NCBI GenBank assembly: GCA_009903825.1
Contig: WYEN01000045.1
Span: 1 to 43,925, forward strand
Direction: 5' to 3'
Origin: Desulfurococcales archaeon
Lineage (GTDB): Archaea; Thermoproteota; Thermoprotei_A; Sulfolobales; AG1
Length of the DNA: 43,925 nt
Position 1 is the first letter of the stretch, and each line of letters starts with the position of its first letter. Shown here in pieces: positions 31,512 to 42,736 of this stretch. The notes beneath the pieces are model-generated. The model was not told the DNA's origin, made no database searches, and saw only the letters and a list, made by a program, of their open reading frames with translations. Both the position numbers and the translations under genes were made by a program.

Positions 31512-31913
31512 ATGTCTCTACAATCTAGAGAGCTTAGATGGGGGATTGCCCATATATATGCTTCTTATAACAATACGCATGTTCATATAACAGATCTTAC
31601 AGGCGCAGAAACAATTGCCAGAAGCTCTGGAGGCAGAGTTGTTAAAGCAGATAGAGAAAAGCCTTCTCCATATGCCGCCATGATGGTCGCATATAATGTT
31701 GCTCAAGAGGCAATGGAGAAAGGGATCTCAGCTATTCATATAAAAGTGAGAGCTCCAGGAGGTCATGGACCGAAGATCCCTGGTCCAGGAGCTCAGCCAG
31801 CTATAAGAGCTTTAGCCAGAGTAGGCTTTATAATAGGTCGTATAGAGGATGTCACACCTATACCACATGACACTACTAGAAGACCTGGCGGCAGAAGAGG
31901 AAGAAGAGTCTGA
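31512..31913 (+). CDS. rps11: 30S ribosomal protein S11
   Basis: 133 residues. [41 protein letters not shown] and [26 protein letters not shown] are S11 signatures, and the basic [11 protein letters not shown] tail is complete. GAGGTGA at 31501-31507 lies 4 nt before the ATG. In other archaea rpoD follows closely; here 311 bases with an IS-like relic intervene. Confidence 0.95.
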
Positions 31914-31934
31914 TCAATGTTCCCAGAGATGACA

Positions 31935-32222
31935 ACGTAAGGGCACTCCTCGTCCTTCAGGGCGGGGTAACATTTATATTTATAAGCCTTTCAAGAAAAT
32001 GTCTGTGGTCGTGATGAGATGTATAATATTTTGAGGGCCTGGAGGCTAATGTCTCGGATGGGTGCTCCATTAGAGCGCCTCGATGACCCTAGGGGGGAGG
32101 CCCCGATGTTTGCCTCCAGCCCGATGATCATTAAAATGAAAAAATTAATCCCTCACCAGAGGGCTAACACCCGAGACCCAGAGATTCGAAACCTCGCCCT
32201 TAAAGGCGGGGAGGGGTCATTA
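31935..32222 (+). mobile_element. Relic of an IS200/IS605-type element with TnpB tail and end hairpins
   Basis: A G+C-rich island in AT-rich DNA fills the 311-base gap between S11 and RpoD. On the left is a hairpin with arms CCTCGTCC (31948-31955) and GGGCGGGG (31960-31967); on the right is the matching hairpin CCTCGCC (32192-32198) and GGCGGGG (32205-32211). Between them, one frame (open from 31986) reads FQENVCGRDEMYNILRAW, resembling the last zinc-finger/RuvC segment of TnpB (CG...DRD...YNILRA), then a tail with NTRDPE just before the right hairpin, as in archaeal TnpB. Transposase TnpA and most of tnpB are absent. The right part is where a TnpB guide RNA (omega RNA) would be encoded. Confidence 0.65.
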
Positions 32223-32228
32223 GGATGA
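31986..32228 (+). pseudogene. tnpB 3' remnant
   Basis: 80 codons open from just after a TAA (31983-31985); the only ATG that could start it is at 32019. The sequence NVCGRDEMYNILRA keeps the spacing of the TnpB C-terminus, but the first DRD aspartate and three of the four zinc cysteines are gone, so it cannot encode a nuclease. The 3' end lies inside the right-end hairpin (NLALKGGEGS), and its TGA overlaps the rpoD ATG as ATGA. I infer decay of an inserted element; retention as an RNA or as a leader for rpoD is possible. Confidence 0.55.
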
Positions 32229-33136
32229 ACGAGGCCTATAATGTTGCTCAGAAGATCGATGTTGAGATTCGTAAACTAACTGACATATATATAGAATTGA
32301 TCTTTAAAAATGTTCCTCTCCCAATATTAAACGCCTTGAGAAGAATTATTCAGCTGGAGGTTCCTGTCATGGCCATTGACGAGGTGATCTTCTATGAGAA
32401 TTCTACTGTATTATATGACGAGATAATAGCTCATAGATTAGGTCTGATACCGCTAAGATCTGAAGAGGCTTTAGATAAATATGGGCCTCCAGAGAAATGT
32501 ATAAAATGTATGGAGAGTTATTATGCAGAAGCTTCTGAAGAAGCTGTTGAGAGACCTTCTTCAAAAGATTGTGAGAACTGTTTCATCTATATAAGAGGTT
32601 CTGTTGAGAATCTTGATGAGGAGGAGTTGAAGACTTTCTACTCAGGAGATCTTTTGTCAGATGATCCTGATGTAGTGCCGGTTTATAAAGAGATTCCTAT
32701 AGTGATCTTAGGACCTCATCAGAGGCTTTCATTTGATGCAAAAGCTAGGCTGGGCAGAGGTATTGAGCATAGTAAGTTTAGTCCTGTGTCTGTGGCAGGA
32801 GTAAGATATGTTGCTGAGATATCTACAAATAGTCTAGATGATACTAATCTGAAAGATGCTGAGAAATGTCTCGAGTATTGTCCTGTAAAGATCTTAGAGA
32901 TCTCTTATGAGGATAAAAAGATCTTAGTTAAAGATCCTTATGAATGTATACTATGTATGCAATGCGTCAAAAGATGTCCTGAGAATAGCATCAAAATATC
33001 TTATAGAAAAGATCAGTATATACTGTTTTTTGAGAGCGTAGGTCAGCTAAGCATAAGAAAGATCCTTTTGACAGCGATAGACATATTTATTAACAAAATA
33101 GATTATTTACTTCAACAGATTAAAGAGATGAGATGA
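32225..33136 (+). CDS. rpoD: DNA-directed RNA polymerase subunit D (RpoD/Rpo3) with iron-sulfur motif
   Basis: 303 residues; it partners RpoL in RNA polymerase assembly. The alpha-like motif FKNVPLPILNALRRIIQLEVPVMAIDEV (about 27-54) and LYDEIIAHRLGLIPL are present. Domain 3 has a ferredoxin-like cluster site (C241, C244, C247, C251) and a partial second one (C215, C219), as in Sulfolobus RpoD. An extra pair of CxxC motifs (C92/C95 and C116/C119), separated by about 20 residues, may bind zinc. The ATG directly follows the IS-like right end; no other start exists nearby. Confidence 0.95.
   Translation: MNEAYNVAQKIDVEIRKLTDIYIELIFKNVPLPILNALRRIIQLEVPVMAIDEVIFYENSTVLYDEIIAHRLGLIPLRSEEALDKYGPPEKCIKCMESYYAEASEEAVERPSSKDCENCFIYIRGSVENLDEEELKTFYSGDLLSDDPDVVPVYKEIPIVILGPHQRLSFDAKARLGRGIEHSKFSPVSVAGVRYVAEISTNSLDDTNLKDAEKCLEYCPVKILEISYEDKKILVKDPYECILCMQCVKRCPENSIKISYRKDQYILFFESVGQLSIRKILLTAIDIFINKIDYLLQQIKEMR

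Positions 33137-42640: not shown

Positions 42641-42736
<96 letters not shown>

Follow-up and report, generated by a model that had tools for sequence, protein, structure and literature searches.

TnpB recognises the site from which its own element has been excised, and this recognition favours retention of that element. IS200/IS605 elements and MITEs carry subterminal hairpins, adjoin a short target motif on their left but not on their right, lack long terminal inverted repeats, and occur in families whose full-length partners share the same ends. All of this is true of the locus described here, which lies between rps11 and rpoD in a 43,925-nt stretch of archaeal DNA (the window, meaning the whole stretch analysed). 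Unlike those elements, however, it has a 5' RNA domain and a promoter-like box of its own, and it sits in a genome in which no Y1 transposase was found. Two further described systems bear on its sister copies. Blombach et al. reported that in Sulfolobales Cbp1 occupies a motif resembling the CRISPR repeat, which lies in the 3' flank of transposons of the IS110 type (ISC1229; PMC10883916). In CreTA, ectopic CRISPR repeats outside arrays yield crRNA-like RNAs (PMC9458426).

Insertion at the start of rpoD

The original prediction placed a G+C-rich island between rps11 and rpoD and held that an element splits the two genes, and both statements are confirmed. In 150-base windows the G+C content of the island is 0.45-0.52, above that of rpoD (0.30-0.41), and that of the adjoining rps genes is about 0.36-0.49. 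The gap between the genes is 312 nt here as against an estimated -29 to +51 nt in 29 of 29 relatives, so that the site is empty in every genome compared; this comparison rests on synteny in the relatives with both genes placed, none of them a strain of the same species. By S11 the nearest named genome is Desulfurococcaceae archaeon AG1, at 90% identity.

Copy boundaries define the insertion as 287 bp (Table 1). Once the flanks are joined at 31933|32221, the S11 stop lies 3 nt from the ATG and an open frame, MFPEMTRMNEAYN..., runs on into RpoD. The fact that S11 and RpoD abut in relatives and that the flanks can be joined indicates that the insertion is private to this lineage and lies at the start of rpoD, and on this sequence comparison the element entered after the ATGAC found there. 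Because rpoD retains its ATG 4 nt beyond the right end, just after the purine-rich GGGGAGGGG, the interruption of the operon was probably tolerated.

Table 1. Coordinates of the element, its parts and its neighbours in the window, with the CRISPR-ended sister copies in the last two lines
Feature	Position	Strand	Basis or remark
rps11 (S11)	31512..31913	+	ORF; 91.8% identity to same-genus G001
Target-side motif ATGAC	31929..31933	+	left flanks of mini-elements and full-length copies; predicted TnpB TAM
Mini-element, IS200/IS605-type	31934..32220	+	boundaries among copies; missing from rps11-rpoD in 29 relatives; joined flanks in frame
Left-end hairpin CCTCGTCCTTCAGGGCGGGG	31948..31967	+	common to full-length copies
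TATA-like box TTTATATTTATAAG	31973..31986	+	copy alignment; inferred promoter
RNA core	32009..32175	+	covariance model R1 match, 192.5 bits; model built with this sequence included
Covarying helix, 5' arm GGGCCTGGAGGC	32035..32046	+	93% of cells paired
Covarying helix, 3' arm GCCTCCAGCCC	32112..32122	+	12-bp counterpart in G074
tnpB 3'-end remnant (IPHQRANTRDPEIRNLALKGGEGS)	32136..32219	+	overlaps right-end scaffold; matches full-length copies
Right-end hairpin CCTCGCCCTTAAAGGCGGGG	32192..32211	+	enclosed by GACCC (32175-32179) and GGGTC (32214-32218)
Predicted guide position	32221..32240	+	directly 3' of right end GGGGTCAT; reads into rpoD start
rpoD (RNA polymerase subunit D)	32225..33136	+	ORF; RpoD homologs in relatives
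CRISPR-ended copies			L126, L117, L124, L125, L122, L123, L121, L118, L120, L119, L114, L115, L116
Their own contigs, respectively			C112, C81, C103, C27, C42, C25, C11, C118, C17, C123, C87, C94, C44

A family of copies with full-length TnpB partners

The feature has 38 matches in its own genome, the best other copy at E 1e-103. Dispersed copies of about 170-290 bp, some with internal deletions, share the same ends within unrelated flanks, and query positions 1-61 and 213-296 recur as the ends of full-length elements measuring about 1.5 kb; in at least seven full-length copies that share both ends, the TnpB frame is intact. Pfam scans of two resident TnpBs gave OrfB_IS605 and the Cas12f1-like TNB domain in each; an NCBIfam scan of one of them reached guided_TnpB at 99.7 bits, just below the cut-off of 100. 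With full-length relatives bearing the same hairpins thus present in the genome, the identification of the locus as a miniature non-autonomous IS200/IS605-type element, one of the options raised originally, is well supported by these sequence relationships. Most copies, miniature and full-length alike, have the consensus NTGAC on their left; no duplicated flank was seen by eye at the copies, and insertion occurs 3' of a short fixed motif. The end hairpins do match, as had been proposed (85% identity), and the hairpin-type copies terminate in GGGGTCAT.

Neither tnpA nor the body of tnpB is present at the locus, again as had been noted. A Y1 (HUH) TnpA was not found anywhere in the genome (94.9% complete), which makes present mobility doubtful; a Y1 transposase is present in 7 of the 59 genomes of the relatives search. 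The feature has no plasmid match, the exact core pattern does not occur in GTDB contigs, and the exact repeat and right-end patterns do not occur in viral contigs. When array spacers were compared with the miniature and TnpB copies, a single spacer gave two short matches (20 nt at 95% and 15 nt at 100%), neither of them convincing.

What the element owes to tnpB is less than had been thought. In tblastn searches with its reading frame, similarity to TnpB is confined to residues 46-73, which contain IPHQRANTRDPEIRNLALKGGEGS, and residues 1-45 match only other mini-elements, several of them with stops or frame changes. The last ~28 residues of the frame, IPHQRANTRDPEIRNxALKGGEGS, are common to intact TnpBs, and the final ~84 nt are 88-95% identical in DNA to the full-length copies. 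Of the TnpB C-terminal pattern originally proposed, these last ~28 codons therefore stand. The CGRDE-YNILRA part does not: the intact TnpBs of this genome end ...CGEIHKNGRIYRGLYICRKTNKKINADINAALNIARKIGYK...SLIPHQRANTRDPEIRNPALKGGEGS, and comparison with them led us to reject this segment, which falls in the RNA domain, as a TnpB zinc ribbon. Dissimilarity to TnpB C-termini, which would have spoken against the proposal, is thus true only of the first ~45 residues of frame 31986-32222, and frame 31986-32225 has no match in Pfam or NCBIfam. The view that only the 3' end of tnpB remains was wrong: the element has its left end and a promoter-like box besides, and also a 5' RNA domain, which is absent from the 3' region of the full-length elements.

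In the full-length copies L012, L014, L016, L017, L018, L020 and L022 the tnpB 5' leader forms a highly stable stem (z = -5.8 for the leader of one of them), and a comparable leader is found in a full-length copy of G074 (L282). A second mini-element family, distinguished by its RNA domain, occurs at L117:1740-2060, with matches on C36, C79, C81, C47 and C15.

The RNA domain and competing explanations

The interior of the element comprises the TATA-like box, a GTGATGAGATGTATAATATTTTGAGGG block that is strongly conserved, and a helix of 11 bp; from the TATA-like box to the RNA core the spacing is near-constant in most copies. Aligned on 15 copies, 93% of the helix cells pair and 5 of the 11 pairs show double-sided changes; only 3 of 500 shuffles reach the observed level, and controls slid along the alignment fall to 30-55%. 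Because the copies are related and the helix was chosen from the same sequences, this covariation is support rather than proof. The region 32000-32222 folds with an MFE z of -3.3 against shuffles, though one CRISPR-ended copy folds only 1.2 sd below them. A BLAST search with the core in 40 relatives gave no match outside the own genome, and the covariance model of the core later found, besides 13 places in the own genome, two in G074, which belongs to another family of the same order. The G074 result is independent, since the model was built from own-genome copies. The element there, found by the RNA model and by BLAST, has a 12-bp version of the helix and the predicted enclosing GACCC/GGGTC pairing, and in all further G074 copies seen the right end is either canonical or somewhat decayed. 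In G004, mini-elements with a length of about 140 bp (L283-L286) retain no more than the two end hairpins, the TATA-like box and the scaffold of the right end; that box and scaffold have outlasted so strong a reduction suggests some importance of the RNA. Rfam returned no match in the window at the gathering threshold other than tRNA, which speaks neither for nor against an omega-RNA, as a lineage-specific one is compatible with such a miss. A tRNA-Lys (CTT) of 96 nt lies at 42641-42736 of the window, its length suggesting an intron.

These features lead us to consider it probable that the non-autonomous TnpB-family element is a stand-alone omega-RNA-like gene, moved in trans and with a predicted guide at the start of rpoD. 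It would have been moved by a TnpA since lost or not assembled. Its own TATA box would drive an omega-RNA-like transcript of about 215 nt, whose 3' end would be the right-end scaffold and whose guide would be the first ~16-20 nt of the flank. With this RNA, TnpB from an intact copy could then recognise TGAC|TAGGATGAACGAGG, the excised site, and so favour retention of the mini-element, much as TnpB does for its own elements; we infer this role from that known behaviour. At this locus the predicted target is TGAC followed by the rpoD-start sequence TAGGATGAACGAGGCCTAT. As to location, the proposal that the guide position falls on rpoD holds, the right end lying directly before it; that it acts as a guide is a prediction. 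Counting against the omega-RNA reading, the 5' RNA domain differs from the classical scaffold at the tnpB 3' end, and, taken alone, the retention of the ends could be owed to past transposition and not to any function of the RNA. If correct, the reading describes TnpB elements of which a promoter-like box and a guide-like RNA are left, beside intact TnpB copies in one genome.

Whether the element has any function at present may be asked, as a genome without a detectable tnpA, a frame broken in other copies and internal deletions in several of them are what would be expected of an internally deleted element stuck between rps11 and rpoD. We regard such neutral debris as unlikely, since the helix is maintained by double-sided changes among divergent copies and in another family, the ~140-bp mini-elements still have the TATA-like box and right-end scaffold, and in the CRISPR-ended copies core and repeat are more conserved than the left end. 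The TATA-like box is oriented as rpoD and the rpoD ATG follows the right end so closely that the element might instead have been co-opted as a regulatory leader or promoter of rpoD, supplying the ribosome-binding-like GGGGAGGGG and persisting in that role. This seems improbable for a feature private to this lineage, whose same-design copies elsewhere lie mostly next to convergent genes or at a distance from the starts of genes. A small protein is a far-fetched explanation: the 69-aa ORF at 32019-32228, which overlaps the rpoD start as ATGA, is open here, but it is interrupted or shifted in several other copies and matches neither Pfam nor NCBIfam, and on these grounds it was rejected.

CRISPR-repeat-ended copies and known systems

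The copy in the window is of the unconverted type, with a hairpin right end. In 13 sister copies (Table 1) a single CRISPR repeat, GATGATCTAYTATAGAATTGAAAG, takes the place of that hairpin, and 7 of them fit it exactly; read backwards, the pattern has no match in the own genome. The last 8 nt of the repeat are AUUGAAAG. The repeat is identical over 24/24 positions to those of long arrays in G002 and G004, from a sister genus, where it is spaced about 66 nt apart. The own-genome arrays, two of which share a contig with type I-A genes (Csa2, Csa5, Csa3 and Cas3 parts), differ from the terminal repeat, having GAAGATCT... variants. No stretch of the alignment of ten copies is better conserved than the repeat: its mean pairwise identity is 0.93, as compared with 0.87 for the best other 26-column window and 0.54 for the left-end block. 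In 11 of the 13 the repeat (GAAAG or a near-variant) forms the exact limit of the element; what follows is unrelated, except that two of these eleven have a partial duplication of the repeat past the terminus; the C112 and C27 copies run on into GGGGAGGGGTCAT. No full second repeat was found downstream of the CRISPR-ended copies, and, the repeat itself aside, the mini-elements share only short, chance-like matches with the own-genome CRISPR leaders. Comparison of the sequence beyond the repeat, where a spacer would lie, covered loci of the own genome. By mechanical ORF calls a convergent ORF lies downstream of at least 10 of the 13, a placement that may only reflect tolerated sites, because some hairpin-type mini-elements likewise face convergent ORFs. 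The C87 copy (L114) joins the 5' part of the second family to a CRISPR-ended 3' part, and the C27 copy (L125) lies inside an ORF resembling a hemerythrin-type gene, named by eye.

We tentatively suggest, from sequence, that exchange of the right end for a CRISPR repeat may have turned these copies into crRNA-like genes with a single repeat each, dispersed and possibly mobile, whose RNA either the host Cas6 would process or a repeat-binding protein (Cbp1, for instance) would bind. Each copy would then consist of a promoter, a structured RNA, one repeat and the adjoining chromosomal sequence. If transcribed and used, such copies would naturally connect CRISPR RNAs with the guide RNAs that transposons encode, and one could test on them directly whether dispersed mini-elements are acted on by TnpB retention or by the Cas6/Cbp1 machinery.

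Compared with described TnpB omega-RNAs, the window candidate is alike in that the transposon right end is the predicted 3' end of the RNA, the guide position falls in the flank, and the scaffold overlaps the tnpB 3' end, as it does in the intact tnpB copies; it is unlike them in being free of a tnpB gene and in having an extra 5' domain with a covarying helix of 11-12 bp. The CRISPR-ended copies resemble CreTA (PMC9458426) in carrying ectopic repeats outside arrays, a likeness drawn without regard to the toxin gene, and differ from it in being dispersed, each with a different flank. The nearest precedent for them among the open-licence PMC papers found is the set of Cbp1 sites at ISC1229 (PMC10883916), where repeat-like sequence is likewise found in a transposon 3' flank. 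There, a motif of 21 bp within an IS110 element agrees with the repeat consensus, whereas the sister copies have the whole 24-nt repeat, which in them follows a structured RNA and forms the end of an IS605-type mini-element.
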